Positions 1-36,355 of a stretch of 39,406 bases of DNA are shown in pieces. The stretch spans positions 1-39,406 of the forward strand of contig JAFTEV010000102.1 of the NCBI GenBank assembly GCA_017453465.1, given 5' to 3'. Origin of the DNA: Bacteroidaceae bacterium. Its GTDB lineage: Bacteria; Bacteroidota; Bacteroidia; Bacteroidales; Bacteroidaceae. The translations under genes and the position numbers were made by a program. The number at the start of each line of letters is the position of its first letter. Positions within the stretch are counted from its first letter, which is position 1. The notes beneath the pieces are model-generated. The model was not told where the DNA came from, did no database searches, and was given only the letters and a program-made list of their open reading frames with translations.

Positions 1-63
1 TGTTTGTAAAAACAACGTACATTGTTTTTGAAAACAACGCCGATGTTTTTACAAACAACGCCG
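1..63. repeat. Short inverted and direct repeats at window edge
   Basis: TGTTTGTAAAAACA (1-14) is the exact reverse complement of TGTTTTTACAAACA (44-57). Between them lies a second palindrome, TTGTTTT-TG-AAAACAA (22-37). Each arm is followed by AACAACG, giving three direct copies spaced about 21-22 bases apart. The stretch could fold as a cruciform. The part to the left is outside the window, so it cannot be said whether this is the tail of a longer array, a terminator or an operator. Confidence 0.6.
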
Positions 64-92
64 TTGCGTCAACTTTCTTTGCCGAAGTGAAC

Positions 93-129
93 AAAAAAAG
101 ACACCACCCCGAAAGAAAACGGAGCGGTG
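93..129 (-). terminator. Rho-independent terminator of the polysaccharide operon
   Basis: Read on the minus strand, a 10-base-pair stem (arms 120-129 and 102-111, fully paired if G-U pairs are allowed) with an eight-base A/T/C loop is followed directly by seven T residues (99-93). It lies about 37 bases after the stop codon of the receiver gene and closes the minus-strand operon. Confidence 0.75.
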
Positions 130-165
130 CCGGAGTGGAGTCTCAGTGAAGTGCGGCGGCTGCGA

Positions 166-591
166 CTATGCGTTGCCGCTGGTGGCAGCCTTCAGATTGA
201 TTTGCGTGGTAACGCTGCTGATGAGCTTTTCCATAATGATGGGCTTGTTGATGAAGTCGTTGGCACCGAGCTTGAAGCCCTTCACGATGTCGGCCTCAGA
301 GTTGAGAGCCGAGAGGATGATAATAGGCAGCGACTTGGTCTTCTCGTCAGCACGTAGGCGGCGAATGACTTCAAAGCCGTCTATGCCAGGCATCATCAGG
401 TCGAGCAACAGCAGGTCGGGCTGGTCTTTGGCTATCATATCGAGTGCCGCCTGCCCACTGTTGGCCGTCTGCAACTGAAACGTGTACTGGGAGAGCATCT
501 TTTTGATGAGAAGCACATTGAGAGGTACATCATCGACCACTAAGACTTTCAATTCATCCACATTGATACCAGGATTGATAAGTGCATTCAT
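166..591 (-). CDS. Stand-alone response-regulator receiver (REC) protein
   Basis: This 141-residue protein is essentially one CheY-like receiver domain. The acidic pair is D20-D21 (VLVVDD), the phospho-acceptor is D64 (LLLDLMMPGIDG), the switch serine is S94 (ILSA) and the conserved lysine is K116 (NKP). There is no DNA-binding or enzymatic output domain, only about 14 extra residues at each end, so it should act by protein-protein contact after phosphorylation, or as a phosphate sink. It is the last gene of a minus-strand run, 86 bases after the UDP-sugar dehydrogenase and just before a terminator. No histidine kinase is in the window. The position suggests it controls the synthase or the zinc-ribbon protein of the same operon; that is an inference. 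The receiver assignment itself is secure. Confidence 0.9.
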   Translation of the reverse strand: MNALINPGINVDELKVLVVDDVPLNVLLIKKMLSQYTFQLQTANSGQAALDMIAKDQPDLLLLDLMMPGIDGFEVIRRLRADEKTKSLPIIILSALNSEADIVKGFKLGANDFINKPIIMEKLISSVTTQINLKAATSGNA

Positions 592-677
592 AAAAATAGG
601 TTTTAATGATTAAAGAAATAATTTATGTTTGTTAGGTTTCTGTTTCGGATTGTTTTCTGGGCTGGGACTGACAGCCA

Positions 678-1973
678 TCAGATTTCGTGGTAGAAGGGTT
701 CGCCCTGCATGGCAGAACGGTAGAAGCCCTTGATGTCACAGAGAATGCCGCCGGGACGCAACATGGCGGGGACGGGCAGTGTGGCAAACTCCCGGTGCTT
801 GACACAGAGCAGGATGGCGTCGTACTGCTGGCCGGCTATGGCAGCGATGTCCGACACGATGTCCACACCGTAGTCCTGCTTCACCAGCGCAGGGATGGCG
901 TAGGGGTCGGCAATGGTGACGGTGTCGCAGAATTGGTTGAGTTCGTGCACGACATCGATGACCTTGGTGTTGCGGATGTCGTTGCAGTTCTCCTTGAACG
1001 TAAAGCCCAGCACCAGGACACGGGCACTCTTGGGCGCAATGTCGGTCAGGTTCATCAGCTTGACAACTTGGTCAGCGATGTACTTGCCCATGGTGTCGTT
1101 GATGCGACGGGCTGCGGTGAGCAGATTGGCCGATTCGCGATAGGCCATGGCTCGCTGAATGAGGTAGTAGGGATCAACGCCGATGCAGTGGCCCCCAACG
1201 AGACCCGGCTCAAGCCGAATGAAGTTCCACTTCGTACCGGCTGCTTCGAGCACGTCGCGTGTGTTAATGCCCATGGCGTTAAAGATGTGGTCTATCTCGT
1301 TCATAAAGGCGATGTTGACATCACGCTGGCAATTCTCCACAATCTTGCAGGCTTCGGCCACGCGCATTGTGGGTGCTTTGTGGGTGCCGTTCTCCAGCAC
1401 CGAGCCATAGAGCCTGTCAACGAAGTCGGCCACTGCGGGCGTGGAGCCGGAGGTGACTTTCTTGATGCGCTCCACGGTGTGCTCGCGGTCGCCTGGGTTC
1501 ACACGTTCTGGCGAATAGCCTGCGAAGAAGTCCACGTTGAACTTCAGTCCCGACACGCGCTCGACCACGGGGAGGCAGTCTTCCTCGGTTGCTCCGGGAT
1601 AGACGGTGGACTCGTAAACCACTACGTCGCCCTTGGAAATGTGGCGACCCACAACTTCGCTGGCTCCAATCAGGGGGCGCAGGTCAACCAGGTGGTGCTT
1701 GTCAACCGGAGTCGGCACGGCCACGATATAGACATTGCAGGTGTCCAGCGCAGCTTCGTCACTGGTACACGTCAAGCCGCCCCGAAGCGAGGCTTGCATT
1801 TCTGCGTCGGTAAAGGTGTCGGTAGAGTCGTGTCCCGACAGCAATTCTTCTACACGAGACTTGCTAACATCAAATCCCACTACGCTGTACTTGCGCGCAA
1901 AGAGGCAAGCCAGCGGAAGTCCTACATAGCCCAGTCCTATTACGGCTATCTTTGAGTTTTGTATGTTCTGCAT
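678..1973 (-). CDS. UDP-N-acetylhexosamine 6-dehydrogenase (TviB/WbpO/WecC-type)
   Basis: The 431-residue protein belongs to the UDP-glucose/GDP-mannose dehydrogenase superfamily, which oxidises C6 of a UDP-sugar to the uronic acid using two NAD+. Visible are the NAD-binding GLGYVG (13-18), STVYPG (122-127), YSPERVNPG (153-161), the catalytic-site lysine K210 (EACKIVEN) and the catalytic cysteine C263 in GGHCIGVDPYYL. GGHCIGVDPYYL and the ERVNPG form are typical of enzymes acting on UDP-GlcNAc, UDP-GalNAc or UDP-ManNAc (WbpO, TviB, WecC) rather than UDP-glucose; the exact epimer cannot be read from sequence. It lies 93 bases after the GT2 synthase and likely supplies its activated uronic acid. 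No epimerase is adjacent, so the precursor must be UDP-GlcNAc or come from elsewhere. Confidence 0.88.
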   Translation of the reverse strand: MQNIQNSKIAVIGLGYVGLPLACLFARKYSVVGFDVSKSRVEELLSGHDSTDTFTDAEMQASLRGGLTCTSDEAALDTCNVYIVAVPTPVDKHHLVDLRPLIGASEVVGRHISKGDVVVYESTVYPGATEEDCLPVVERVSGLKFNVDFFAGYSPERVNPGDREHTVERIKKVTSGSTPAVADFVDRLYGSVLENGTHKAPTMRVAEACKIVENCQRDVNIAFMNEIDHIFNAMGINTRDVLEAAGTKWNFIRLEPGLVGGHCIGVDPYYLIQRAMAYRESANLLTAARRINDTMGKYIADQVVKLMNLTDIAPKSARVLVLGFTFKENCNDIRNTKVIDVVHELNQFCDTVTIADPYAIPALVKQDYGVDIVSDIAAIAGQQYDAILLCVKHREFATLPVPAMLRPGGILCDIKGFYRSAMQGEPFYHEI

Positions 1974-2007
1974 ATCAATGAATGAATGTGTTTGTTTCTT
2001 TATTATA

Positions 2008-2020
2008 TATATAATGTGTA
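2008..2020 (+). repeat. Intergenic 13-base motif TATATAATGTGTA, copy 1
   Basis: Exact 13-mer TATATAATGTGTA inside an alternating TA run (2001-2020), in the gap between the GT2 and dehydrogenase genes. The same 13-mer recurs at 13272-13284 and 28446-28458, always outside or at the edge of genes and in the same orientation. Function unknown. Confidence 0.6.
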
Positions 2021-2066
2021 CCCGTGCGGCGGGTGTGTTTGCAGCGAATTGGCCCAGAGGCTGTGA

Positions 2067-3383
2067 CTAAGCCCGCTCCAGCTGGGCATACCTTGAAGTC
2101 TTCTTCGGATTCCACGGGTCTTTGTAGGAAGAGAAGAAGAAGAGTTCCTTGGTGTGGGCTATGAGACGCACAATGCGCATGAAGTAGCCCGTGTAGAGCG
2201 AAGTCAGCGGCAGGAAACGAATGAGGAAGAACTCTTCGCGCTTACGCTCCGTCACGGCCATAATCACGGTAAAGGCAATCAGCGAAAAGCCGAAACGCAG
2301 GAGGAAGTCGAGCAGCATGACCTCGAAGATGTGCTCGCTGAAGGTCCACATGAGGTTGACGAAGTAGAAGAGCCAAATGTAGTTGAAGACGCAGTCGTAG
2401 ATGATGCTCTCCATGTTGGAGGCAAAGTTGGAGAAGTTCCAGTTGCGCTGCGGCAGCAGAATGTCGCGGTGCTTGCGCACACGGAAGCGGATGAGTGACT
2501 TGGACCAGCGCAGACGTTGCTTGAAGAGCTTGGTCCACTTGGTCGGCACGCTGGTGAGGCAGACTGCGTCCTCTGCGAATGCCACTTTGTAACCTGCCTT
2601 GCGTATTTTCTGTGTGATGTCGCCGTCGAGGCCTGGGCCAATGTCCCAGTAGCCCACCTTCTTCAGGGTCTCCACATCGAAGGCTCCGAAGGCTCCCGAT
2701 ATGATGTGCAGAATGCCCAGCTTGGCTGTCACCATGCGCCCCACCATGATGGTCTTGAGGTACTCCACGGCCTGCATGGAGGAGCAGATGGTCTCCTTGT
2801 AGTTGCGCACCTTCACCGTGCCGCCCACGCCCTTCACCTGCGAGTCGAGATAGAAGGGCAGGAGTATCTTCTCTATGGCATCGCGGTCGAGCGAAGAGTC
2901 GGCATCGAGGTGGACAATGTATTTGCCACGGGCGTAGTAGGCTCCGTAGTTGGCTGCGCTGGCTTTGCCGCCACGGACATTGCAGCGCAGGAAGCGGTCG
3001 ATGTAGCCATGACGCTCCAATTCGGTGCCTATGAGCGGGGTCATATCGTCGGAACCGTCGTCCACAACAATGATTTCGTAGTTGTGGTAGGTCTGTTCGG
3101 CCAGGGATTTCACCAGCTTGTAGATGTTCTTGCCTTCGTTCTTGCCCGGAACCAGAATGGTTATCAGCGGGTTTTCCTTAAAGAGACGGAAACGGGCGTA
3201 GAACACTTTCTTGTTTTCGCGCTTGTAGGTCAGCACGTGCCACACCACAACGATGATTTCGAGCAGATAGTATCGAGGAAACTCAATACAGAAGAGAAAC
3301 CAGTATGTGTTGAAGATACTGGAGAAGGACAGGTGTTGCAACCATGTCACAAAAGTCTCTAAGCTGTCGAAAATAAAGTTCAT
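2067..3383 (-). CDS. Membrane GT2 polysaccharide synthase (Alg8/HasA/PgaC-like)
   Basis: A 438-residue processive family 2 glycosyltransferase. Residues 25-52 hold N-terminal membrane segments, the catalytic domain runs from about 72 to 300, and three or four membrane helices lie at about 330-405. Catalytic signature: DDGSDD (108-113), DAD (160-162), the acceptor-side acid cluster in GLDGD (251-255) and QRLRW (289-293), i.e. the D,D,D,QxxRW set of cellulose, hyaluronan, alginate and poly-GlcNAc synthases. These enzymes polymerise a UDP- or GDP-sugar in the cytoplasm and push the chain through their own membrane channel. The start lies 20 bases after the zinc-ribbon gene. With the neighbouring UDP-HexNAc dehydrogenase, a polymer containing an N-acetylated hexuronic acid is the simplest guess; the product is not proven. 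The C-terminal tail (about 415-438) is soluble and basic. Confidence 0.9.
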   Translation of the reverse strand: MNFIFDSLETFVTWLQHLSFSSIFNTYWFLFCIEFPRYYLLEIIVVVWHVLTYKRENKKVFYARFRLFKENPLITILVPGKNEGKNIYKLVKSLAEQTYHNYEIIVVDDGSDDMTPLIGTELERHGYIDRFLRCNVRGGKASAANYGAYYARGKYIVHLDADSSLDRDAIEKILLPFYLDSQVKGVGGTVKVRNYKETICSSMQAVEYLKTIMVGRMVTAKLGILHIISGAFGAFDVETLKKVGYWDIGPGLDGDITQKIRKAGYKVAFAEDAVCLTSVPTKWTKLFKQRLRWSKSLIRFRVRKHRDILLPQRNWNFSNFASNMESIIYDCVFNYIWLFYFVNLMWTFSEHIFEVMLLDFLLRFGFSLIAFTVIMAVTERKREEFFLIRFLPLTSLYTGYFMRIVRLIAHTKELFFFSSYKDPWNPKKTSRYAQLERA

Positions 3384-3403
3384 CTGGACGGGGTTGCGTG
3401 CGG

Positions 3404-5077
3404 TTATTTCATGAGAAGAATGAAGATGGCAAGGATGATGGCTACGATGGTGAGTGCCGCAAGGAGGATGTAGAGCACGTTGAACTTGCGCTGCTGGGGC
3501 ACTTCGGGCTGTGGCTTTGGCTCAGGAAGCGGGACTTCGTTGCTGACCCGCAGTTCTTCTGCTGTGGGGGCATGGTAGAATTCATCGACCGTGCCATCAT
3601 CGCGCAGGGGTGCGGATGTGTCGTCTGTGGCATTGGGGTTGATGGCTTCGGGATTGTAGTCCACTGCGTCGTCGGGAGTAGCCGTCACAAACTGTAGGTC
3701 GTTAAGGAACTGGTCGATGTTGGAGCCGTCGCCTTCGAGCTTCATGTATGTGTAGCAGATTTGTTCGCCCGGCTTGAGGACGTAGGCCGCTGCACGGATG
3801 GCCTCGGAGAGCAGTATCTGGAAGTCGAGAATGGCTTGTTCCTGATCGCCCTTGTAGTCGGTGACGATGTCGTTGATATAGGTAATGTTGTTGGCCGCAG
3901 AGACTTTGTTGTTGGGGAAGTATTTGCAAATCTGTGCCAGCAGTTCGGCGCGATTGGCCACTGTAGCGGCTGTGGCATCGAGAATCCAGATTTTGCCGAC
4001 CAGAACGTCTCCTGCAATGCGGCCTGTGAACTTCTGTTCGGCCAAAAGACGGATGCGGTTGACGAAGCGGTCAAATTCGAGGAAGTTGTCGTAGAACTCG
4101 GTGTAGATGGAGAAGCCTATGTTGAGCGACGTGATGGCAATGACTCCTTCCTTTGTGATTTCATAGATGTTGCAGTTCTGCGGAACGAGGGACTTCACGT
4201 CGGACGTGGTGTGGCAGTTGGAGCATACGGCTTGCATCTTGGCCTGCAAGAAGGAGTTGCCGCAGGAGTCACAGGTGAAGACGGTGGCCGGACGGTCGTA
4301 ATCCACGCCGATGTGGTGCAGCATCTGGTGACACTTGGGGCAGCGCAGCTGTCCGCCAAAGTTGTAGGTGTGTTCGGGTGTGATGTTGGCACAGCGGAAG
4401 TGGTGAATGACCTCTTCGCTCTGTATCATGGAGTTGCCACACTTGGGGCAGCTCTCGATGTAGAGTAGGTGGGAGTGCAGGCACTTAGGGCAGAGGTAGA
4501 TGCGATTGACGAACTGGGTGGAGCGGATGTAGCCTTTCTCCAGCATGGACTGTATGAAGACAAAGAGTTCGCCCAGTGTGTACCAGCCCAGCTTGTAGAA
4601 CACATTGATGATGGGGACTACATAGCCCGTGGCAGAAGTGTTGTCAAGTTCCAGGTCGAGCTTGAGGTGGTCCCGAATGATGAGAAAGCGGAAAAGGCGG
4701 ACGAAGAACTGGTTGGCAGAGACTATCTTGTCTTCGATGGAGGTGAGCTTGAGTTCACTGCGACGGTTGATGATGTCTTCTACCTTGTTGAGTGCACCCA
4801 CGTCGTTCCAATCATCAAAATAGCCGTCAATCAGGTCGGCATACTCGCCCATCTTGCCTTCGAGCGAGCGGGAGACGAAGAAGGGTTTGTAGCAGCACTT
4901 GACGGATGTGACGGGGTTGATGGTGTTCAGTATGTTCTGGGTCATATCGACCGAGTCATTGAGAATGAACACTGCATCGAAGATATATTCGGGAAAGTCA
5001 GGCGACTCCTCAAGTGGGAACGGACTGTCTAACAAGAGTATTTTACGCTCGTGCTCGTTGTTCTGTATGGTAATCAT
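3404..5077 (-). CDS. TackOD1-like zinc-ribbon regulatory protein, tail-anchored
   Basis: A 557-residue protein. Residues 10-90 resemble a degenerate receiver-like alpha/beta fold (KILLLDS, DAVFILND, FVSRSLEG), without a convincing phosphorylation site. Residues 190-300 carry a metal-ribbon block: C196-x2-C199, C210-x2-C213, H225/H226 with C229, C246-x2-C249, C269-x2-C272 and C285-x2-C288, with GVDYDRP at 257-263. This arrangement fits my memory of the TackOD1 output domain, which occurs with receivers and diguanylate cyclases. Residues 310-465 are a globular domain I cannot name; a GGDEF-derived fold is possible but no GGDEF motif is seen. After a Pro/Glu-rich linker, residues 533-556 form one membrane helix, so the protein is anchored by its tail with the bulk in the cytoplasm. 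It lies 3 bases after the adaptor gene and before the synthase, so a role as co-polymerase or activator is inferred. Confidence 0.6.
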   Translation of the reverse strand: MITIQNNEHERKILLLDSPFPLEESPDFPEYIFDAVFILNDSVDMTQNILNTINPVTSVKCCYKPFFVSRSLEGKMGEYADLIDGYFDDWNDVGALNKVEDIINRRSELKLTSIEDKIVSANQFFVRLFRFLIIRDHLKLDLELDNTSATGYVVPIINVFYKLGWYTLGELFVFIQSMLEKGYIRSTQFVNRIYLCPKCLHSHLLYIESCPKCGNSMIQSEEVIHHFRCANITPEHTYNFGGQLRCPKCHQMLHHIGVDYDRPATVFTCDSCGNSFLQAKMQAVCSNCHTTSDVKSLVPQNCNIYEITKEGVIAITSLNIGFSIYTEFYDNFLEFDRFVNRIRLLAEQKFTGRIAGDVLVGKIWILDATAATVANRAELLAQICKYFPNNKVSAANNITYINDIVTDYKGDQEQAILDFQILLSEAIRAAAYVLKPGEQICYTYMKLEGDGSNIDQFLNDLQFVTATPDDAVDYNPEAINPNATDDTSAPLRDDGTVDEFYHAPTAEELRVSNEVPLPEPKPQPEVPQQRKFNVLYILLAALTIVAIILAIFILLMK

Positions 5078-5080
5078 GGG

Positions 5081-6310
5081 TTAATAATTGTGGTCTTTGG
5101 TCAGTTCCTTGAATTTGGTAGTATCTACAGGAACAAGAATCTGGTCTTCTTTTACTTCAAATATGCGACGTGGGTCATACTGAATGGTGTCGGGCTGTGA
5201 GAAGAGTCCATTGAAAATGCCGCCGAAAGAGTTGTAGAATGTGTCGTACAGCACATTGTTGGCCACCCTGACCCGCACGGGCACGTGGTCGTTGAGCACC
5301 CAGAAGGGGATGTACTGCCCTGCATCGAATGTGAAGAGTGCGATGACAGCGTCGATGTCATGGCTGAAGTTGCTGATCAGATGCTTTGGGATGTCCTCAA
5401 CACGGAGTCCCAACAGCGACAGGTGTGCATAGAAGGTGAGGTCGTCGTTGACAATGACCTCGATGCGCTTGTTGTTGTTGATGTACTTCACTTGGTTGGC
5501 TGGGATGTAGGCCATCACGCCGAGGTGAGAAGCCTTGTAGTCGGTGTGCTGCAAGTCCATTACGTTCTCCTTCTCGAAGACCACCGTGTTCTTGGCCACC
5601 TTGATGTCTGTGACGATGGCTTCTTCGGGCGCACAGCAATACTGTATCACACCGGCCTCGTAGCGGTTCTGTCCTGGTGAATAGGGCAGGTGGTTGTGGC
5701 CGTAACCCGAATTGACAATGTAGCGAGAGGAGTTGCCTGCCATGCTTTCGTAGATTTGAATCTTGCGCTGCTGTTCCAACAGTTTCTCGCGACACTCGTT
5801 GAGTTCAGCTTCGATGGCCATGCGCTTGGAGTTGTCGGTGAGACCATAGAAGATGTCGTTCTTTTCGCTCTTCAGGCGTTTCGTCAGTTCGTTGATTCGG
5901 GTCTGCAACACAGGAATCTCCTGCCGCGCAAGGGCTGCCTGAAGTTTCAGGTTGGCATGGTCAAGGATGATGGATGGGACAGCGTTGACATTGAACTGGC
6001 CTAACAGGTTGTCGAGAAGCACGTAGGAATAGAGTGTGTCGCCAGGCTGAACAATGTCGCCCACATTCTTGTAGATGTCGAGCACATACAAATCATCAAT
6101 GGCACGCAGGTTGTTTTGGTCGAGCTTCACATAGCCATCATAATAGGTGTAAACCACTCTGCGATAGGCAAAGACAAACAAAATAATCAGAATGGCGGTA
6201 AAAACAATGGCATAGATTGTTTGCTGTTTGGCGAGTTTCTTGTTCTGATAGTTCAGAAACTCGTTCATATCTTGTTCTTGAGGCTGTGAGTTATAGCTGA
6301 AGTTGTTCAT
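5081..6310 (-). CDS. HlyD/Alg44-type periplasmic adaptor
   Basis: The 409-residue protein has a cytoplasmic head (1-30), a single membrane helix (31-49) and a periplasmic part of membrane-fusion type. Residues 75-97 form the first half of a lipoyl/barrel-sandwich domain (YVLDIYKNVGDIVQPGDTLY), about 115-195 a coiled-coil hairpin rich in L, E, K and Q, and from about 230 the second half (EAIVTDIKVAKNTVVFEKEN) leads into a beta-barrel-like region. Such adaptors bridge an inner-membrane transporter or synthase to a TolC channel. Its start overlaps the TolC-like stop by four bases (6307-6310), so translation is coupled. No ABC transporter is present; the partner is therefore likely the GT2 synthase, as for Alg44 in alginate secretion. 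No PilZ domain is visible in the short cytoplasmic head. Confidence 0.82.
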   Translation of the reverse strand: MNNFSYNSQPQEQDMNEFLNYQNKKLAKQQTIYAIVFTAILIILFVFAYRRVVYTYYDGYVKLDQNNLRAIDDLYVLDIYKNVGDIVQPGDTLYSYVLLDNLLGQFNVNAVPSIILDHANLKLQAALARQEIPVLQTRINELTKRLKSEKNDIFYGLTDNSKRMAIEAELNECREKLLEQQRKIQIYESMAGNSSRYIVNSGYGHNHLPYSPGQNRYEAGVIQYCCAPEEAIVTDIKVAKNTVVFEKENVMDLQHTDYKASHLGVMAYIPANQVKYINNNKRIEVIVNDDLTFYAHLSLLGLRVEDIPKHLISNFSHDIDAVIALFTFDAGQYIPFWVLNDHVPVRVRVANNVLYDTFYNSFGGIFNGLFSQPDTIQYDPRRIFEVKEDQILVPVDTTKFKELTKDHNY

Positions 6311-7692
6311 TTGACAGGTGTTTCAATGATGAGTGTCTGCAAATTGTTGTAACTCGTCGTTTTCTGAATATCAAGAAGCGCAAGGCTGCGACTGAGCATC
6401 AACTTATACATGCGCTCCATGCTTTTAAGGTATTCGTTGTATTCCTCCAGACGAATGATGTAATTGTAGCCCTTGGGCTGTTTCAAGTAGGCATTCTTAC
6501 GCAGTTCCACATATTTGCCCAACTGTTCTATGTGGAATGCTTCTGTGCGGATAGCCCTGTTTAACCGCTCCACGCGGTCGAGACGAAGACGGCAATAAGA
6601 CTTCATGTCTTCATCCAGAGACTGGCGGCTTTCCCGAATGATTTGTTTTTCGGTTTCGATGGCACGACGTTTTGCCCCCGATTCGTCGTAAAGCGGGAAG
6701 GTGAAGCGCACGCCCAAATCAATGTTGGAAGACGGAGAAACCAGCTTGCGCAAGTACATGGAACCGCGTAAGAACGGGGTCAGGCGCATGGTCTGCCCAT
6801 AGTTGGTGAGCTTCTTTTCCTTATCGAGCAACTGCTCCTGCACATAGCTGGCACGAAGGTCGGGGTTGTAGCGTTGCACTTCTTCAAAAAGGCGGACAGA
6901 GTCAATGGTTATGATGGTAGGGCGAAGGGCGTAGAGGGGTTCGTTGGCAATGTCTTTCAAATCGAATGTCTGTGCAAGCGTGTATTCCAGCTCCATCTTG
7001 TCGTTGATGTTCTCAAGCAGTTTGTCGTTGCTGATTTTATCTTGCTCCAGCATGTACTGGTATGCCTGATTCAGAATATCTACATTCTGCAATTCGTTAT
7101 ACAGCACAATGGCGATGTAGTAGTTGTACTCCATCGTCAGCAGATTCTCCGCAGCCTCATAGATGGCCTTGTTCTTGTCCTTGCTCTGCTTGATGTATTC
7201 CAGCTCGTTGGCAAGTTGAATCCGTGCCAGCTCAGACTTACGCTGATAGAATGCGCTGTTGAAGAAGTTCCAGCCCAGTTCTGCTTGAAACTTGGCCACG
7301 TATGCCGAATACTGGTCGTCATCGTCGTGGGAAATGACCAACGCCTGATCCAATCGTCCGTATGCCTGTCCCGTCACTTCCAGTCCAGTGCGGCGTTTGA
7401 AGGCTTTTGCCTCCTGCGCTCCTTTGGCACGATAGAGCGAATCAAGAGCAGCATCGGGCAACAAGACATCTTCGCCCAAAGTCAAGTTGGGGCTTGCAAC
7501 AGAAACGCTGTGCTGCAACAACTTGTCCATTTGTTCAAAACGCTGGTCAAACTGCCTCAACACATCTTCATTCTTGAGATTCTCATAAACAAGCATCTTG
7601 ACGGGCACATGGGCTGTGTCGTCCTGTGCATTGGCTGCACAAAAAAAGAAAAATAAAGAAGGAAGAATGAAGAACCTGAGCTTCTCTGCCAT
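6307..7692 (-). CDS. TolC-like outer-membrane channel protein
   Basis: A 461-residue protein with a signal peptide (hydrophobic 6-19, cleavage probably after CAANA at about 22). The mature protein is dominated by long amphipathic helices with L/E/Q/R heptads (for example 110-215 and 330-440), as in outer-membrane efflux (OEP/TolC) proteins, and its length fits. TolC trimers make a continuous tunnel through the periplasm and outer membrane. Being first in the run and translationally coupled to the HlyD-like adaptor, it is the probable exit duct for the polymer. Sequence identity to classical TolC is not obvious by eye, so the call rests on helix pattern and context. A near-consensus -7 box (TACCTTTC, minus strand, 7701-7708) lies directly upstream and may give this operon its own start. 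Confidence 0.75.
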   Translation of the reverse strand: MAEKLRFFILPSLFFFFCAANAQDDTAHVPVKMLVYENLKNEDVLRQFDQRFEQMDKLLQHSVSVASPNLTLGEDVLLPDAALDSLYRAKGAQEAKAFKRRTGLEVTGQAYGRLDQALVISHDDDDQYSAYVAKFQAELGWNFFNSAFYQRKSELARIQLANELEYIKQSKDKNKAIYEAAENLLTMEYNYYIAIVLYNELQNVDILNQAYQYMLEQDKISNDKLLENINDKMELEYTLAQTFDLKDIANEPLYALRPTIITIDSVRLFEEVQRYNPDLRASYVQEQLLDKEKKLTNYGQTMRLTPFLRGSMYLRKLVSPSSNIDLGVRFTFPLYDESGAKRRAIETEKQIIRESRQSLDEDMKSYCRLRLDRVERLNRAIRTEAFHIEQLGKYVELRKNAYLKQPKGYNYIIRLEEYNEYLKSMERMYKLMLSRSLALLDIQKTTSYNNLQTLIIETPVK

Positions 7693-7719
7693 AGGTATCA
7701 GAAAGGTATAGAATGTAAC

Positions 7720-7765
7720 GACACCGTGGGAATGTCATCAAAAAGTGATGCATTCCCACAGTGTC
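7720..7765 (-). terminator. Very stable intercistronic hairpin
   Basis: Arms 7720-7734 and 7751-7765 pair over 15 positions (one G-U on the minus strand), and the stem continues after a single bulged base with CATCA/TGATG (7736-7740 and 7746-7750) around a five-base loop. It lies between the lipoprotein stop and the TolC-like start. There is no T-tract, so it may be an mRNA-stabilising or partial-termination hairpin rather than a simple terminator. Confidence 0.65.
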
Positions 7766-7780
7766 ATAAGATTGATTTTC

Positions 7781-10195
7781 TTATTGGAAAAGTTCTGCAA
7801 GGTCATAAATCTGAAGACCATACATACCGTATGCAACGTAAGCCTTCTTGCCTGTAACTTTCACGAAGTTAGAAGACTGCTTGGTAGCGTCAGTTTCGTC
7901 AATCAGCGTAGCATAGCGTGCATTGCCAATGCCGAAGTAGCCATAACGCTTCACGGTCTTGTTATAGACAACGCCATTGTCTTCGTAGGTCTCAGTCTGT
8001 GACAGAACTGCCAGACCAGACCCCGTAGCAATGTAGATGTACTTATCGTCGGCATCAACGCCGTTGGCAGACTTCTTTGAACCACCTACACGGTTGCCGT
8101 TGTAGTCATACACATCAAAGCCATTTGCACCACGGCAAACATAAATCTTGTTGCCGTCACCAATGCAGACGTTCTTACCATCTGTTGGAGTGATTGCACC
8201 AACGTTGAACGACTTCACGTGAATCATGTCCTGAGTGTAGAGAGAAACAGTGCCGTTTGCAACATCGTTGAGCGTGATGATATATGTACCGTCATTATAG
8301 ATGTACTTGCCGTAGAATGATTCGCCATCTACAATGGCCTTCTTCTCCTGGTTGCTGTAGTCAGTAAGACCGAACTTGTTGATAGCACCATTGGTTGAGC
8401 CAGAGATAGTCAGCAGTTCGCCATTGTTGATGATGCAGCAGTTGGCCGAAGAACCAGTCAGGTTGACACGGATGTTCTTGCTGGCAAAGTTTGCCTCGTC
8501 AATTGTGCCGTCGATGTTCAGAGCAACTTCGTGGAGAGCAGCACCCACCTTGTTGCTTGTAGAAGGCAGATAGAGCTTGCCGTCATAGTAAACAACGTGG
8601 TTATACTTGTGCTCGTTCTGAATCAAAGTCTGGTCGAAGAGGTAAGTAGAAGGATCGCCATAGTTGTTGGTGTTGATGACATCAATAATGCCACCCCAGT
8701 CAGCAAGACCGTCAACAGAGACGCTTGAACCATCAGCGTTGGTCACATACATGTTCGTGCCATGAGCATGGTCAGCCTCGCCATCATTACCGATGTTTGA
8801 GTGCCATGACAGATAGAGCTCACCGTTAGGACCGAAGTCGAGAGCTGTAGCAGAATACTTGTGTACAGGAGGAGTTACAATTACGATAGGAGTATTGTAG
8901 TTGTAGCCAGGAGCACATTCTGTCGGAGCCATCGAGAAGTTTGCCAACTCTTCGTCTGCAATATACACACCTGGCTGCACAGTGATGTTCGACTTAGCCA
9001 GTTCGTTTGCCAGTTCGTGGTCATTGCCAACGAAGTAGAACTTCTCAGCATCCAGAGCAAAAGCAGAGCCAGAAGCAGCATTCTCAACACGGAAAGAATT
9101 CAGAACCTGAGTTACGCCATTACCCTCGTTGTTGGCAATGATGTTAGCCTTCACAACAGCCTTGGCGTTCTCGCCTTCCAGAATGACAACGGCATTGTTG
9201 CTGTTGTTCTCGTCCTTGTAAGTGCCAGCCACCTCAATCATGCTGCCGTCAGCAAGGTGAATCTTGCTGGTTGCGCAAGCATAAACATTGCCAGCAGAGA
9301 GGTAGTTGATCCAAGCCTCCGACTCGTTGGAATTGATGTTGAACAGCCCCGGAGTGAACACCTGGCAGCCAGCAGCAAACTTCGTGTAAGCCTCCAGCGA
9401 AATGTTTGGAGCCTCTACTCTACCCTGCACAACCAGTGTCTGCTGTACGAGCAGGTCTGTGTTAAGAATCAAGTCGCCAGCAACGTAGCACTTAGCATCC
9501 TTCTCAATCCAGAAGTTCTTGCAGTGAACGTCACCACCGATATAGATATTAGCGCGATTGGCACGGAAGTCAATATCATCGCCCAAGTCCAAGTCACCGT
9601 AGTTATACAGTGCACCTGTAGCCTGGTCAATGTAAAGTTCCTTCTTGGCATTGCTGCAGTTCAATTCACCATAATTGTAGATGTTGAACTGAACAGGAAG
9701 ATCAGTATTATAATTCAAAGTACCTCCAGGCAAAACGTAAATTTTAGCAGGAACTTGACCGCTGCCTGTCCAAGCAGAAGTGCCCCAGTGGTTACCCAAG
9801 TCCAGTGTACCCTGAACATAAAATTCATCACCATTAAGACCCAGGTTACTACCATCGTATGTCACGCCAGCAGGAATGAAATATTTAGTGTTTGACTGTA
9901 TTTCCCAGCCATTCACACCAGCCATACTCTTGGCATCAGAAGGAACAGCGGGAGCCTCAGCCATGCTTGAAGTCACGCCCAACAAATTGATAACAGAAGA
10001 AGAAACGGCACGAGTGCCCATTGTTTCGAGGTCGTTGAAGTTTACGATACGATTTGCATCGCTCTTCACAAATGCAAAATCAGAAGAAGACGTAAGGTTT
10101 GCCTGTGCAGCACCATTGTTGTCAGACAAGCCGTCATCGGTAGAACACGCTGCCATCATAAGGGCGGCAGCACCGAATAACCAAAATTTTTTCAT
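7781..10195 (-). CDS. Large surface lipoprotein with propeller-like C-terminal half
   Basis: Start chosen at the second methionine (MKKFWLFGAA), four codons inside the longest frame, because it opens a clean lipoprotein signal with lipobox MAAC and lipidated C17. Residues after the cysteine are STDD; acidic residues here resemble the Bacteroidota surface-export signal. Length is about 804 residues. The N-terminal half (about 90-410) is rich in G, N, Y and short beta stretches like a beta-helix (repeated YNYGDLDLGDD, IYIGGDVHC, CYVAGDLILN). The C-terminal half (about 450-804) has recurring blade-like strands (GKLYLPSTS, NKIYVCRGANGFDVYDYNG, KYIYIATGSGLAVLS, KAYVAYGMYGLQIYDL), close to LVIVD-type beta-propeller repeats. 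It has its own promoter (10240-10247). I do not recognise a named family; binding a glycan at the cell surface, perhaps the polymer of the next operon, is a guess from position. Confidence 0.7.
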   Translation of the reverse strand: MKKFWLFGAAALMMAACSTDDGLSDNNGAAQANLTSSSDFAFVKSDANRIVNFNDLETMGTRAVSSSVINLLGVTSSMAEAPAVPSDAKSMAGVNGWEIQSNTKYFIPAGVTYDGSNLGLNGDEFYVQGTLDLGNHWGTSAWTGSGQVPAKIYVLPGGTLNYNTDLPVQFNIYNYGELNCSNAKKELYIDQATGALYNYGDLDLGDDIDFRANRANIYIGGDVHCKNFWIEKDAKCYVAGDLILNTDLLVQQTLVVQGRVEAPNISLEAYTKFAAGCQVFTPGLFNINSNESEAWINYLSAGNVYACATSKIHLADGSMIEVAGTYKDENNSNNAVVILEGENAKAVVKANIIANNEGNGVTQVLNSFRVENAASGSAFALDAEKFYFVGNDHELANELAKSNITVQPGVYIADEELANFSMAPTECAPGYNYNTPIVIVTPPVHKYSATALDFGPNGELYLSWHSNIGNDGEADHAHGTNMYVTNADGSSVSVDGLADWGGIIDVINTNNYGDPSTYLFDQTLIQNEHKYNHVVYYDGKLYLPSTSNKVGAALHEVALNIDGTIDEANFASKNIRVNLTGSSANCCIINNGELLTISGSTNGAINKFGLTDYSNQEKKAIVDGESFYGKYIYNDGTYIITLNDVANGTVSLYTQDMIHVKSFNVGAITPTDGKNVCIGDGNKIYVCRGANGFDVYDYNGNRVGGSKKSANGVDADDKYIYIATGSGLAVLSQTETYEDNGVVYNKTVKRYGYFGIGNARYATLIDETDATKQSSNFVKVTGKKAYVAYGMYGLQIYDLAELFQ

Positions 10196-10239
10196 ACTCA
10201 AATACATTTATTAAGTTCAACTTACATATTATTTCGCGG

Positions 10240-10247
10240 CAAAGGTA
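10240..10247 (-). promoter_or_regulatory. -7 box TACCTTTG for the lipoprotein gene
   Basis: TACCTTTG on the minus strand matches the Bacteroidota -7 consensus TAnnTTTG and lies 45 bases before the chosen lipoprotein start. No convincing -33 TTTG is seen at the usual spacing. Confidence 0.6.
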
Positions 10248-10292
10248 GCACTTCTTCTCAAATAATAAGGTATTACACTTGAATAAAAGCAC

Positions 10293-10319
10293 AAAAAAAG
10301 TTAAAAAAGGTAACTTTTT
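10293..10319 (-). terminator. Terminator after the AI-2E-family permease gene
   Basis: On the minus strand a perfect 9-base-pair stem AAAAAGTTA/TAACTTTTT (plus coordinates 10311-10319 and 10295-10303) with a seven-base loop runs into a T-rich tail. It lies 35 bases after the permease stop. Confidence 0.65.
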
Positions 10320-10353
10320 ACACCAAATTTCCTTCTTTTTGAGCAAAAGCGGA

Positions 10354-11442
10354 TTAAGGGAGAGCATCTTTTGCTTCTTCAAGCACATAGCGTTTGTAGT
10401 AGGAAATCAACAAAGTTGTCAGTGGCAGGGCAATAATCAAACCGATGAAACCCAGCAACGACCCCCACACAGAGAGACTCAGCAGAATCACGGCAGCATT
10501 AAGCCCCGTCACATTGCCCATGATTTTCGGGGTCAGAATCGCATCCTGAATTGTCTGCACCACGGCAAACACCAACAAAGCTGGCAGCAGAATGCTCCAG
10601 AAATTCTCATTGGTGTCGTATGCTTTCAGCAAGGCCAACAGAATCGTAGGAATAAAACCCAGCGTCTGCAAATAAGGCACCAGGTTCAAGAACCCGATGA
10701 ACAGTCCCAAAGGTATCGCCAGCGGGAAGCCGATGATTAAGAATCCGATGGCAAACAGTATGCCCACACACAGCGCAATCAGGCTCTGTCCACGGAAATA
10801 GCCATTCATGCCCTTCTCCACATCTTTTATTACCGCGTAAACAATGCCGCGCTTGGTGGGTGGAACCATGTGGATGATGCCATGGCTCATCTGCTCATAA
10901 TCCATCAGGATAAAGAACAGGTACAGGATGGAAATGAGCGATGCCACAAGGCCCACAAGCGTGTTCACAGAGTTGGACAGCAGACTGAAGACCTGCGGCA
11001 CACCGCGCTCCACCAGCGAAGACACATCCTTGATGGTCAGTGCATTCGCAATCTGGTCAAAATCGACATTGTGCTTGATGAACAACTCTATCTCGTCCGA
11101 CACATAATTCACCATCTTGTCGGTCGTCACATAGTCTATGATCATCCCCTTCAGGCGGCCCACTTCCTCAATGATTGAAGGCATAATGAGGTAGCAAGCC
11201 CCAGCCAAGATTCCCGCAATGATCAGCAGTGTGACCACAATGCTCAGCACCCGCGACTTCAGCCTGCACTTGTACTGGAAGAAGCACACCACAGGATAAA
11301 GCAGATAGGCCACAAGCCATGCCAGAAAGAATGGCACCAGCACACGGCTCAGTTTGCGCAGCAAGATATAGACCAGCACAACCATCAGGACTGCCATCAC
11401 AGCCCGTATGAAGCGGTCAAAAGTGATTTCCCTTGTTTTCAT
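10354..11442 (-). CDS. AI-2E family (PerM/YdiK-type) membrane protein
   Basis: A 362-residue integral membrane protein of the AI-2E transporter (UPF0118) family. Two adjacent N-terminal helices (about 14-29 and 34-54), a third at 64-84, a charged soluble segment (about 88-150) and four to five helices in the second half, with the family-like PLAIPLGLFIGFLNLVPYLQTLGFIPTI stretch region around 245-275 and a conserved proline-rich last part (LIIALPLTTLLISYYKRY). Members export small molecules or act as sodium/proton antiporters; despite the name, few have anything to do with autoinducer-2. It is a single-gene unit with a TATCTTTG box 72 bases upstream and its own terminator downstream. Substrate cannot be told from sequence. 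Confidence 0.88.
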   Translation of the reverse strand: MKTREITFDRFIRAVMAVLMVVLVYILLRKLSRVLVPFFLAWLVAYLLYPVVCFFQYKCRLKSRVLSIVVTLLIIAGILAGACYLIMPSIIEEVGRLKGMIIDYVTTDKMVNYVSDEIELFIKHNVDFDQIANALTIKDVSSLVERGVPQVFSLLSNSVNTLVGLVASLISILYLFFILMDYEQMSHGIIHMVPPTKRGIVYAVIKDVEKGMNGYFRGQSLIALCVGILFAIGFLIIGFPLAIPLGLFIGFLNLVPYLQTLGFIPTILLALLKAYDTNENFWSILLPALLVFAVVQTIQDAILTPKIMGNVTGLNAAVILLSLSVWGSLLGFIGLIIALPLTTLLISYYKRYVLEEAKDALP

Positions 11443-11513
11443 CTCTTCACTTTTTCTTTTAAGTTAGACACAGAATAATGCTAAGACACAAGCACTTTTC
11501 GTTAATTATTCGG

Positions 11514-11521
11514 CAAAGATA
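11514..11521 (-). promoter_or_regulatory. -7 box TATCTTTG for the AI-2E-family gene
   Basis: TATCTTTG on the minus strand fits TAnnTTTG and lies 72 bases before the permease start, back to back with the rsmI promoter. Confidence 0.55.
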
Positions 11522-11585
11522 GATATAAAAATGTGAAAAAACGTTGTTTTCGCGCTTTTTTTTTCGCAAAGTTACAGTTAATTCA

Positions 11586-11593
11586 TACTTTTG
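11586..11593 (+). promoter_or_regulatory. -7 box TACTTTTG immediately before rsmI
   Basis: TACTTTTG ends only four bases before the rsmI start codon at 11598. Transcription from this box would begin at or inside the start codon region, so a leaderless or nearly leaderless mRNA is predicted. Confidence 0.6.
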
Positions 11594-11597
11594 CAAC

Positions 11598-12356
11598 ATG
11601 CTATACATCGTACCAACGCCTGTAGGCAACATGGAGGACATGACCATGCGAGCCATCCGAGTGCTCAAAGAGGCCGACCTGATACTCGCAGAAGACACCC
11701 GCACATCGGGGGTCCTGCTCGCCCACTTTGACATCCACACGCCGCTCCTGTCCCACCACAAATACAACGAACACGAGACCGTGAACACCGTGTTGGCACG
11801 ACTGCAAGCCGGAGAGACCATCGCCCTCATCAGCGACGCTGGCACACCGGGCATCAGCGACCCAGGCTTCCTGCTTGCACGCGAAGCGGCACGAGCCGGC
11901 ATCGAGGTGCAGACACTGCCTGGCCCCACAGCTTTCGTGCCCGCGCTGGTCAGCAGCGGACTGCCCTGCAACCGATTCGTCTTCGAAGGTTTCCTGCCCC
12001 AGAAGAAAGGCCGACAGACTCGCATCGACCTCTTCCGCAACGAAGTGCGCACCGTGGTCTTCTACGAATCGCCCCGCCGTCTGGTCCGCACACTGGAGCA
12101 GTTTGCCGAAGCCTATGGCTCCGACCGCCCCGTCTGCGTGTCACGCGAAATCTCAAAGCTCCACGAAGAGCACATACGCGGCACCCTGGCCGAGGTCACC
12201 CAGCACTTCCGCACCCACGAACCCCTGGGCGAAATCGTCATCCTGCTGGGCGGAGTGGCCGAAGCGGAGGCCGACGAACCAGAACAGGCAACAAGCAGCG
12301 ACCCCCTGTCGCTCATCATGGGAACTGCAAAATCCAAGAACAAATACAAAAACTAA
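11598..12356 (+). CDS. rsmI: 16S rRNA (cytidine1402-2'-O)-methyltransferase
   Basis: RsmI uses S-adenosylmethionine to 2'-O-methylate C1402 in the decoding centre of 16S rRNA. The start is placed at MLYIVPTPVGNM, 18 codons inside the longest frame, because this is the canonical N-terminus and sits right after a promoter box. Diagnostic tetrapyrrole-methylase-fold motifs: VPTPVGNMEDMT (4-15), LAEDTRTS (about 33-40), ISDAGTPGISDPG (about 77-89), PGPTAFVPALVSSGLP (about 108-123) and FEGFLP. At 252 residues it is of normal length. The following lipoprotein gene begins 18 bases downstream, so the two are probably co-transcribed. Assignment is secure. Confidence 0.95.
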   Translation: MLYIVPTPVGNMEDMTMRAIRVLKEADLILAEDTRTSGVLLAHFDIHTPLLSHHKYNEHETVNTVLARLQAGETIALISDAGTPGISDPGFLLAREAARAGIEVQTLPGPTAFVPALVSSGLPCNRFVFEGFLPQKKGRQTRIDLFRNEVRTVVFYESPRRLVRTLEQFAEAYGSDRPVCVSREISKLHEEHIRGTLAEVTQHFRTHEPLGEIVILLGGVAEAEADEPEQATSSDPLSLIMGTAKSKNKYKN

Positions 12357-12374
12357 TAAAAACAGAGAAACATC

Positions 12375-13229
12375 ATGAAACAGATCTTTATCCTTGCAGC
12401 CGTATGCGCTGCCCTGTGCACATCATGCGGCAACGGAACTGCCACAAGTTCCGACAAATCCGCCAGCGAGCGCGATTCACTCCAGCGCATCATTGACCAA
12501 AAAGACCTTGAAATCAATGATATGATGGGGCAAATCAACGATATTCAGGAAGGCTTCTCACTCATCAATCAGGCTGAAGGCCGTGTCAACATGCTGGCAC
12601 AAAATGCCGAAGGCAACAACTCTACTGAGAACATCCGCGAGAACATGGAGTTCATCCAGCAGACACTGGCCGCCAACCGCCAAAAGATTGCCGACCTGGA
12701 ACAGAAGCTGAAGAGCAGCAGCATCAATGCCTCCAAGCTGAAAGAGACCATCAGCGCCCTCACCCAACAGCTGGAAGCCAAAAACCAGGAACTGGAGCAA
12801 CTGCGTGCAGAGCTGGCCGAGAAAGACGTGCAAATCGCTGCCCTCAACGAGAACGTGAACACCCTCACAGCCGAGAACACCGAGGTGAAGCAGCAGCGCG
12901 ACGAAAGTCAGCAACTGGCTCAGGCTCAAGACCAACAGCTCAACACGGCATGGTACGTCTTTGGCACCAGCAAAGAACTGAAGGAGCACAACATCCTGAA
13001 AAAAGGCGATGTGCTGAAGGGCGACTACGACAAGGCATACTTCACGAAGATAGACATCCGCAAGACGCAGGTCATCCCCTTCTCGTCGAAGTCGGCCAAG
13101 CTCCTCACCACCCACCCCGCCGACTCCTACAGCCTGATGAAGGACACCAAGGGAGAATACACCCTGCGCATCACCGATGCACAGCGTTTCTGGAGCATCA
13201 GCAAATACCTGGTTGTGCAAGTGAAATAA
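12375..13229 (+). CDS. Coiled-coil lipoprotein, Cbp1-like adhesin family
   Basis: A 284-residue lipoprotein with lipobox CTSC and lipidated C18. Residues about 30-190 are nearly continuous coiled coil (heptads such as LEQKLKSSS, TQQLEAKNQELEQLRAELAEKDVQIAALNENVN), followed by a compact C-terminal domain (about 193-284) beginning LNTAWYVFGTSKELKEHNIL and ending FWSISKYLVVQVK. This arrangement matches my memory of the Bacteroidota family annotated as Cbp1-type collagen-binding glycoprotein adhesin. The family is widespread in commensals, so a more general envelope role is likely; collagen binding is not something the sequence shows. It lies 18 bases after rsmI and 54 bases before the next gene. 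Confidence 0.65.
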   Translation: MKQIFILAAVCAALCTSCGNGTATSSDKSASERDSLQRIIDQKDLEINDMMGQINDIQEGFSLINQAEGRVNMLAQNAEGNNSTENIRENMEFIQQTLAANRQKIADLEQKLKSSSINASKLKETISALTQQLEAKNQELEQLRAELAEKDVQIAALNENVNTLTAENTEVKQQRDESQQLAQAQDQQLNTAWYVFGTSKELKEHNILKKGDVLKGDYDKAYFTKIDIRKTQVIPFSSKSAKLLTTHPADSYSLMKDTKGEYTLRITDAQRFWSISKYLVVQVK

Positions 13230-13271
13230 ACAGGACGCGCCGCGCACTGCACACTGCGAATTCCTATATAA

Positions 13272-13284
13272 TATATAATGTGTA
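13272..13284 (+). repeat. Motif TATATAATGTGTA, copy 2
   Basis: Second exact copy of the 13-mer. Here the ATG inside the motif (13278) is an alternative start for the following secreted protein, two codons before the ATG chosen. Confidence 0.55.
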
Positions 13285-14000
13285 TGCATCGTACAGTTTT
13301 CATCCTAATGGCTCTGCTCGCTGCCATGGGCCTGAGCGCACAGGACTGGGAGCCTATCGGCACATGGCCCTTCGAGTACAAGACCTTCCGTGTGGCCACC
13401 GTCTATTCGGGCGTGTTTAATGTCAAGAAGACACAAGTGCCATGCAACATCCATCTGGGCAACCAGACCCTCTGGTTCTCACGCAACGACACACTGATGG
13501 AAGCCCTGCAGGGCACCATCCTGCGCGTGGAATTCCCCAACGGTGACACCTTCATGCCCGTGAACGAAAGCCAGCAATTCGGGAAAATCATTCAGCAGGA
13601 CACCCTCTGCGGCAAAGTAGCCCGTGTGCTGCATGTGCGCAGCGTGGACCAGAACGCTGTCGATAGGCGTGCTGTGGACATCATGAACAACTCGCAGAAC
13701 CTGCAGCAGACTTCGCTCAACATGGGAGCCTGGGGCGCACAGCTCTCCGATGCCAACGCTGCCATCAACGAGGAAGAACTGCCCCTGCCCCTCATCAACA
13801 CCTTCTACTACCAGTACAACGGCGAAATCTTCGAGGCCAAGGAGAAGAACATCCTCAAGCACATCGACCAGAGCCGCCGCAAGGAGTATCGCAACTACAC
13901 CAGACAGGCGGAAATCATTTCCAACAACAAGTCCAGTATGCTGAAGGTGTGGAACGACTTCTTCGTGAACTACAGCAAGCCGCTGCACGTGAAGAAATAG
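13284..14000 (+). CDS. Secreted protein of unknown function
   Basis: About 238 residues from the ATG at 13284 (an in-frame ATG at 13278 is possible). It begins MHRTVFILMALLAAMGLSAQ, a signal peptide with probable cleavage after LSA. The mature part has a beta-rich first half (YKTFRVATVYSGVFN, GTILRVEFPNGDTFMPVNE), a middle with LCGKVARVLHVRSVDQNAVD, and a helical, charged C-terminal third (FEAKEKNILKHIDQSRRKEYRN). No catalytic motif, lipobox or membrane helix is seen. I do not recognise a family. It is the last gene before a strong terminator and is probably part of the rsmI transcription unit. Confidence 0.75.
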   Translation: MHRTVFILMALLAAMGLSAQDWEPIGTWPFEYKTFRVATVYSGVFNVKKTQVPCNIHLGNQTLWFSRNDTLMEALQGTILRVEFPNGDTFMPVNESQQFGKIIQQDTLCGKVARVLHVRSVDQNAVDRRAVDIMNNSQNLQQTSLNMGAWGAQLSDANAAINEEELPLPLINTFYYQYNGEIFEAKEKNILKHIDQSRRKEYRNYTRQAEIISNNKSSMLKVWNDFFVNYSKPLHVKK

Positions 14001-31423: not shown

Positions 31424-31434
31424 ATTACTAATGT

Positions 31435-33852: not shown

Positions 33853-33872
33853 GTGCGTTTCATTTTTGGTCG

Positions 33873-33880
33873 CAAAATTA
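33873..33880 (-). promoter_or_regulatory. -7 box TAATTTTG for the GH115 operon
   Basis: TAATTTTG on the minus strand ends 20 bases before the GH115 start and supports the start choice. Confidence 0.6.
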
Positions 33881-33915
33881 CACTTTTTTAGCAAAAAATC
33901 CTTTCGTAAATTATA

Positions 33916-33939
33916 TGTAACTTTTAGCCCCACGTTACA
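33916..33939. promoter_or_regulatory. Inverted repeat TGTAAC-N12-GTTACA in the divergent GH115/GH2 promoter region
   Basis: TGTAAC (33916-33921, continued by TTTT) and GTTACA (33934-33939) form a six-base inverted repeat in the 209-base region between the divergent GH115 and GH2 genes. Related TGTAACATTT repeats occur at 39156 and 39176. A shared regulator site is possible. Confidence 0.35.
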
Positions 33940-34032
33940 AAACTGCAAGAACGAGAGCTGAAAACCAAAGAAATGATACACGAGAAAAAGTTTTCGTACA
34001 GCCGAACACTTTATTATATTAAGAAAAAGAAG

Positions 34033-34040
34033 TAACTTTG
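34033..34040 (+). promoter_or_regulatory. -7 box TAACTTTG for the GH2 gene
   Basis: TAACTTTG lies 21 bases before the GH2 start at 34062 and overlaps the longer open frame, which argues against the upstream ATG at 34038. Confidence 0.6.
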
Positions 34041-34061
34041 CCGCAAATTATTGTTAAGACC

Positions 34062-36341: not shown

Positions 36342-36355
36342 GACATTTGGTCTGG

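Follow-up and report, generated by a model that had tools for sequence, protein, structure and literature searches.

The mxdABCD genes of Shewanella are needed for a three-dimensional biofilm, and their products include a membrane glycosyl transferase (MxdB) and an efflux-like protein (MxdC) (PMC3691769; this and the other papers are cited from excerpts). MxdA carries a degenerated GGDEF domain (PMC3409153) and binds both cyclic di-guanosine monophosphate (c-di-GMP) and the receiver CheY3, the phosphorylated form of which is required for biofilm formation (PMC7666153, PMC11395469). Degenerate GGDEF proteins also control the synthase-dependent polysaccharides of the Pel system (PelD) and of Escherichia coli Bcs (BcsE, composed of a degenerate receiver and a degenerate GGDEF domain), and both proteins bind c-di-GMP via a retained I-site (PMC7439463). 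In the XcsA-XcsB-TolC system of cyanobacteria, cellulose secretion involves a family 2 glycosyltransferase (GT2) synthase and a HlyD-like adaptor, with TolC as the proposed exit (PMC12430437). Here we describe an operon at positions 166 to 7,692 of a 39,406-nucleotide stretch of a contig from a Bacteroidaceae bacterium (JAFTEV010000102.1, assembly GCA_017453465.1; the whole stretch is hereafter called the window), in which a protein of the TackOD1 family is encoded between a putative HlyD-like adaptor and a GT2 synthase.

The TackOD1 family is characterized by 11 Cys residues in five CXXC motifs and one HXXC motif, and its function was called obscure at naming (PMC5847659, the only source mentioning TackOD1 in the literature searched). 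We consider it fairly probable that the operon is a synthase-dependent polysaccharide secretion system of the Shewanella mxdABCD kind, free of c-di-GMP and linked to a receiver. Like Shewanella oneidensis mxdABCD, it combines a membrane glycosyltransferase, an efflux-like protein, a regulator and a stand-alone receiver, which in Shewanella (CheY3) binds MxdA. The Shewanella arrangement is close to the inference of a preliminary description of the window, in which the TackOD1-like protein, perhaps gated by the receiver, controls the synthase. In contrast to mxdABCD, the window lineage lacks an I-site, no GGDEF or PilZ domain was found, and the receiver, a dehydrogenase and a lipoprotein are encoded inside the operon. 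The lack of an I-site also distinguishes the window lineage from PelD and BcsE. To our knowledge, neither Pel nor Bcs has TackOD1, and their exit machinery differs. The cyanobacterial system differs in having a PilZ domain on the synthase and scattered genes in T. vulcanus, and the excerpts of PMC12430437 do not mention TackOD1.

The preliminary description also suggested that the combination may be a distinct, undescribed secretion class, and this did not hold in full. The gammaproteobacteria Aeromonas, Plesiomonas and Photobacterium encode a TackOD1 protein with a degenerate GGDEF domain together with GT2 and HlyD proteins, a form resembling mxdABCD, and a HlyD/TolC exit has already been proposed for cyanobacterial cellulose. 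No description of the present operon was found in the literature searched, which was limited. The finding is broader than first stated and not wholly undescribed, and the earlier interpretation as a whole is partly supported.

Operon layout and gene products

The features of the operon are as follows.

100..131, minus strand, intrinsic terminator at the operon end (12 pairs, eight of them G-C, and a run of seven T)
166..591, minus strand, stand-alone receiver, 141 amino acids (PF00072, 105 bits)
678..1973, minus strand, predicted uridine diphosphate (UDP)-N-acetylhexosamine (HexNAc) 6-dehydrogenase, 431 amino acids (TIGR03026; GGHCIG at residue 260)
2067..3383, minus strand, membrane GT2 polysaccharide synthase, 438 amino acids (PF00535/PF13641 over the cut-off)
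3404..5077, minus strand, putative TackOD1 regulator, 557 amino acids (PF18551, 161.5 bits)
5081..6310, minus strand, putative HlyD/EmrA-type membrane fusion protein, 409 amino acids (profile comparison with the PDB; one hydrophobic segment, residues 31-49)
6307..7692, minus strand, putative TolC-like outer-membrane duct, 461 amino acids (open reading frame)
7781..10207, minus strand, lipoprotein of 808 amino acids, with Cys21; gene proposed as the first of the unit (position and co-occurrence)

The six genes from tolC to the receiver are open reading frames of one strand in the order given by the preliminary description, with the claimed intergenic gaps of −4, 3, 20, 93 and 86 bases, and the single terminator reported at the operon end is the hairpin at 131-100.

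The synthase matches PF00535 and PF13641 over their cut-offs. The QRLRW motif reported earlier is present at residue 289 (bases 2505-2519), and the residues invariant in 16 sequences are DD, DAD, D253, D255 and Q289-R290-x-R292-W293. In the PDB, a GT2 profile matches synthases of chondroitin, hyaluronan and cellulose. The best NCBIfam family is that of the poly-N-acetylglucosamine synthases PgaC/IcaA (TIGR03937), yet the score of 157.6 bits is far under the equivalog cut-off of 422.3. PilZ domains, which mark the c-di-GMP-controlled Alg and Bcs synthases, were found neither in the operon proteins nor in the related genomes described below. The dehydrogenase is assigned to the nucleotide sugar dehydrogenases (TIGR03026, 357.9 bits against a cut-off of 189.8) and is closest to TviB (NF011729, 448.1 bits, below the equivalog cut-off of 592), which suggests a HexNAc-uronate component in the polymer.

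Taken by themselves, the window sequences give weak grounds for the HlyD and TolC labels. The HlyD-like protein scores 15.9 bits with PF13437, below the cut-off of 22.2; its family profile matches membrane fusion proteins (3.6e-10), EmrA (9.1e-7) and HlyD (8.6e-5) in the PDB, with coiled coils appearing from 3e-4. The TolC-like protein has no match to OEP (PF02321), and its family profile A5 finds no TolC in the PDB. OEP matches 16 of 36 members of the TolC-like family at E≤0.1, with the distant L062 exactly at the cut-off. We count the TolC/HlyD-type exit of the preliminary description as supported, with the reservation just given. In distant Bacteroidota, TolC-like proteins extend into a GH18-like domain (L052:11831-14026 and L062:10926-12947); that of L052 matches PF00704 at E 2.1e-5 (24.8 bits, below the cut-off of 29.6), and that of L062 was judged by eye.

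The lipoprotein gene, absent from the preliminary description, is on the strand of tolC and 88 bases upstream of it; it adjoins the operon in all five operon-bearing loci of the genus and probably belongs to it. Cys21 is invariant. The protein has weak bactofilin-, adhesin- and propeller-like matches only, and 29 of the 80 top loci of the genome scan described below contain relatives.

The TackOD1 protein and its flanking domains

The identification of the 3404-5077 product as TackOD1-like was borne out by a PF18551 match at E=2.1e-47 (161.5 bits against a cut-off of 32). Its Cys set agrees with the family description, and the metal motifs are C196/199, C210/213, C246/249, C269/272, C285/288 and H226-C229. 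The protein can be divided as follows.

4715..5077, minus strand, N-terminal domain, residues 1-121, at the position of a receiver in some distant homologues
4157..4714, minus strand, TackOD1 zinc domain, residues 122-307 (11 Cys, five CXXC, HXXC)
3653..4156, minus strand, C-terminal domain, residues 308-475, placed where homologues have a degenerate GGDEF domain
3413..3469, minus strand, predicted C-terminal membrane anchor, residues 537-555 (hydropathy)

The tail anchor, which had also been noticed earlier, corresponds to the hydrophobic segment at residues 537-555. It is seen in the window protein and L082 and is not seen in L086, L090 or the four aligned orphan copies.

In six distant Bacteroidota loci (L052, L056, L057, L058, L060 and L061), the TackOD1 protein starts with a receiver. 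A profile of their N-terminal domains matches receivers at E 5.7e-25, and the three proteins tested individually match PF00072 at their N-termini (L052, E 5.8e-24; L057, 8.3e-22; L058, 1.2e-21). The TackOD1 proteins of Palleronia and Roseibium also start with a receiver, and Hpt and kinase genes are nearby. Five other distant loci (L051, L053, L055, L059 and L063) carry an N-terminal domain of another, unassigned kind. Profile comparison connects the N-terminal domain of the window group with that of an intermediate group (E 4.5e-9), and the match of the intermediate group to receivers is not clear (E 0.032). No sequence tie between the window N-terminal domain and receivers was found, either directly or via the intermediates.

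Alignment A1 comprises 20 proteins, 19 of which have the C-terminal domain (L062 stops before it); conservation of this domain is poor. In the Aeromonas and Plesiomonas proteins, GGDEF is matched over the cut-off at the C-terminus (35 and 41.6 bits). GGDEF is also matched below the cut-off in two of the three receiver-bearing proteins that were scanned (E 0.0049 and 0.0084), and a PDB search with the mixed profile A1 retrieves a GGDEF domain at 1.4e-6. The window protein has no PF00990 (GGDEF) match at E≤1. A chain of profile comparisons leads from the window group to the intermediate group (E 3.3e-4, 17%) and from there to GGDEF (E 1.6e-4, 24%). A GGDEF origin of the window C-terminal domain is only indirectly supported, through these intermediates and through position; its position behind the TackOD1 domain is a stronger argument for a GGDEF origin than the profile chain. 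A GG(D/E)EF motif was seen by eye at that site in none of the 38 aligned TackOD1 proteins. The RxxD I-site is present in four of four gammaproteobacterial, one of eight alphaproteobacterial, two of 12 distant Bacteroidota and none of 14 Bacteroidales sequences, the alignment of this column being uncertain in the Bacteroidales. We infer that the I-site was lost in the window lineage rather than gained elsewhere.

Conservation, synthase grouping and orphan pairs

The neighbourhood survey proposed in the preliminary description revealed a conserved order. A scan of named genomes gave 520 places encoding relatives of the TackOD1 protein, of which the best 80 were kept and counted; their titles name two Flavobacteriales, and the rest are Bacteroidales or groups within. 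These 80 loci comprise 50 operons and 30 loci of an orphan form. Among the 50 operons, HlyD is directly upstream of TackOD1 in 48, TolC is next in 46, GT2 is directly downstream in 47, and the dehydrogenase lies at most two genes downstream in 31. Seven of the operons are incomplete, six of them because a contig ends at that point, and L134 has no recognized TolC, which is unexplained. The operon titles include Segatella, Hallella, Bacteroides, Barnesiella, Paraprevotella, Heminiphilus and Muribaculaceae.

Across the phylum, 12 of 395 genomes have TackOD1 over the cut-off (seven more fall below it), and 12 reach at least 680 bits with the GT2 profile A2, the next best score being 212. The two sets are the same 12 genomes. 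Each genome was scored by its four best GT2 candidates and at most eight TackOD1 candidates. Because A2 was built partly from loci that were later counted, their high scores are partly by construction, and the informative results are the gap to 212 bits and the identity of the two sets. In the 12 loci fetched from 11 of these genomes, all but that of the window, and in L063 (same order), HlyD, TackOD1 and GT2 are on one strand, with TackOD1 directly before GT2.

The association extends to plasmids. A query with L052 was dominated by receiver matches (4995 records), and receiver-free TackOD1 queries were used instead, which gave 16 records, 15 bacterial and one archaeal. All 15 bacterial records have a GT2 match within 0.5 kb of TackOD1. 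A HlyD-type gene is adjacent to GT2 or one gene further in 12 of the 13 plasmid loci read (by annotation, Pfam or profile), and its status is unclear in the remaining one, L215 of Methylocystis. By annotation, a TolC gene is next to GT2 only in Aeromonas and a few genes away in Methylocystis. The archaeal record, from Natronococcus, encodes its TackOD1 protein at L216:5839-6822, with no GT2 annotated nearby. No relative was found in viral contigs with a single-sequence query, and phages gave no match.

In a maximum-likelihood tree of 62 GT2 sequences, all 44 TackOD1-linked synthases fall on one side of a branch (ultrafast bootstrap, UFBoot, 100; SH-aLRT 96). The window GT2 is on the same side as those of Aeromonas, Plesiomonas and Photobacterium, and plasmid pgaC and icaA copies lie outside the TackOD1-linked group. 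The tree has a midpoint root and contains no BcsA or Alg8 rows, and the program warned of long branches and of unusual composition in six rows. It was obtained from 73 rows by dropping 11, namely L220 and L221, with long branches, and nine close relatives. In the earlier 73-row tree, one row labelled as unlinked, L220 from Sinorhizobium medicae, stood among the linked rows; its flank contains a TackOD1 fragment (46 bits) and a HlyD match.

The phosphorylation residues of the stand-alone receiver (D20, D21, D64, S94 and K116) are kept in all 27 sequences of the genus. In Candidatus Bacteroides pullicola (L120:14857-18044), the gene for a receiver protein precedes that for a hybrid histidine kinase, a candidate kinase for the receiver. 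The proposed absence of c-di-GMP control is supported as far as the search extended. Among 41 genomes of the genus and the order, none contains GGDEF and none contains PilZ, and of 14 control genomes eight and five, respectively, were positive; these searches covered GGDEF and PilZ and did not include EAL.

TackOD1 is present in 30 of 37 genus genomes, that of the window included. Among 26 further genus loci fetched with wide flanks, four are operons and 22 encode TackOD1 and a receiver without an adjacent synthase. The orphan loci are L065-L081, L083-L085, L087 and L088. Where read, their neighbours are DUF3109 (Pfam, L080) and a ribF-like gene (by eye). In 21 genus genomes that lack the operon and were searched whole, no GT2, HlyD or TolC of these families was found; 19 of these genomes have TackOD1, and 16 of the 19 are represented among the 22 orphan loci. 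Purifying selection acts on the orphan TackOD1 genes, with a median ratio of nonsynonymous to synonymous substitution rates (dN/dS) of 0.06 for 49 of the 120 pairs of 16 genes, the remaining pairs being excluded by the limit of 3 on dS or not computable. Loss of the synthase would be the simplest reading of the orphan form. The pair apparently functions without a synthase, an observation in favour of a portable signalling module that also tells against the synthase being its sole target.

The remainder of the window was also inspected. Window bases 1-13339 are present a second time in the same draft genome, 100% identical over 13,339 bases (second contig, L064), and the second copy is probably a duplicated contig or assembly duplicate. 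A gene for an AI-2E family transporter lies at 10354-11442 on the minus strand, 146 bases upstream of the lipoprotein gene, and an open reading frame of 362-371 amino acids occupies this position in the other four genus operon loci. Two Eco57I-type DNA methylases are encoded at 15516-17033 and 23841-27485, the second with a TaqI-like specificity domain, with a T5orf172 protein between them at 18803-21334. Glycan enzymes are encoded in the region 28463-39104: a GH43 protein, in which CBM6 is matched below the cut-off, a GH115 protein, and an alpha-galactosidase that also has an acetylesterase domain.

Proposed mechanism and alternatives

In a system of the mxdABCD kind, the membrane GT2 would polymerize UDP-sugars, one of which is probably a UDP-HexNAc uronate from the dehydrogenase, and the chain would cross the inner membrane through the GT2 itself. 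The HlyD-like adaptor and the TolC-like duct would carry the chain outward, and the lipoprotein may act at the surface. The TackOD1 protein would be the cytoplasmic partner of the synthase, and the phosphorylated receiver probably binds it, by which the synthase would be licensed. The gating of TackOD1 by the receiver, as envisaged in the preliminary description, finds outside support in the fused receivers, in the 27 intact receivers and in the binding of CheY3 to MxdA; direct gating of the synthase is our inference.

More tentatively, and with less than even confidence, we propose a wider reading. In gut Bacteroidales without detectable c-di-GMP parts, the synthase may be switched directly by a phosphorelay, through a phosphorylated receiver that is either fused to a TackOD1 protein or encoded next to it, the TackOD1 protein having a common ancestor with a c-di-GMP effector. 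As regulatory partner, TackOD1 would then define a class of synthases that spans phyla, and its pairing with a receiver would be a portable module with another target in species that lack the synthase.

Several observations weigh against the c-di-GMP-free, mxdABCD-like reading or its parts. MxdD has been described as without known homology and not as TolC in the excerpts of PMC3691769. The presence of TackOD1 in MxdA would be an extrapolation from other gammaproteobacteria, the Mxd proteins being compared here by description, and most of the proteobacterial loci read have no TolC gene beside GT2. In direct profile comparison, the N-terminal domain of the window group does not match receivers (E 0.73) and the C-terminal domain does not match GGDEF (E 0.81), profile A4 finds neither domain in the PDB, and the probabilities along the chain to GGDEF are low (the 17% and 24% given above, and 5% from the receiver-bearing group). 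Of the 41 genomes searched for GGDEF and PilZ, 20 have a completeness of 90% or more and contamination of 5% or less, and GGDEF occurs in 108 of 198 phylum genomes, so that its absence is specific to the genus and order of the window. The receiver is not adjacent in every operon. The orphan pair occurs without synthase, HlyD and TolC, and the partner of TackOD1 need not be a synthase.

The most probable alternative, to which we give a modest minority weight, casts the TackOD1 protein as a subunit with a structural or assembly role, needed for the folding or membrane placement of the synthase, with the receiver acting elsewhere or on transcription. Apart from orphans and contig ends, TackOD1 stands beside GT2 in the bacterial loci examined and is more constant there than any receiver. 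Zinc ribbons are often binding modules, which fits such a subunit. Fusion to receivers in some distant Bacteroidota, in Palleronia and in Roseibium argues against it, as do the degenerate GGDEF domain with its I-site at the end of the gammaproteobacterial proteins and the 22 of 26 further genus loci in which TackOD1 has no adjacent synthase.

It is rather unlikely that the C-terminal domain instead senses a cyclic dinucleotide different from c-di-GMP, or some other ligand. Retention of the domain in 19 of 20 A1 proteins would accord with such a sensor, and the degenerate GGDEF domains of PelD and BcsE are ligand sensors (PMC7439463). The poor conservation of the domain and the lack of an I-site in 14 of 14 Bacteroidales sequences (where the alignment is unsure) point the other way.

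That the genes form an ordinary efflux or protein-export operon of the tripartite type, next to a glycosyltransferase by chance, is very improbable: the TolC and HlyD families do serve efflux and type 1 secretion, and the AI-2E-type gene is on the same strand upstream of the lipoprotein gene, but the arrangement of TackOD1 immediately ahead of GT2, with HlyD close by, is found repeatedly in different phyla, no such transporter is annotated in the plasmid units, a distant TolC-like protein bears a GH18-like domain, and a conventional efflux operon was ruled out because no ABC, RND or MFS family was found among the eight window proteins scanned.

TackOD1, a domain of obscure function when it was named, is now linked to a single group of polysaccharide synthases found in Bacteroidota, Alphaproteobacteria and Gammaproteobacteria, and its role thereby becomes directly testable. 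The operon may also represent a case in which control has moved from a second messenger to a phosphorelay, with intermediate-looking forms, in bacteria of the gut and rumen.

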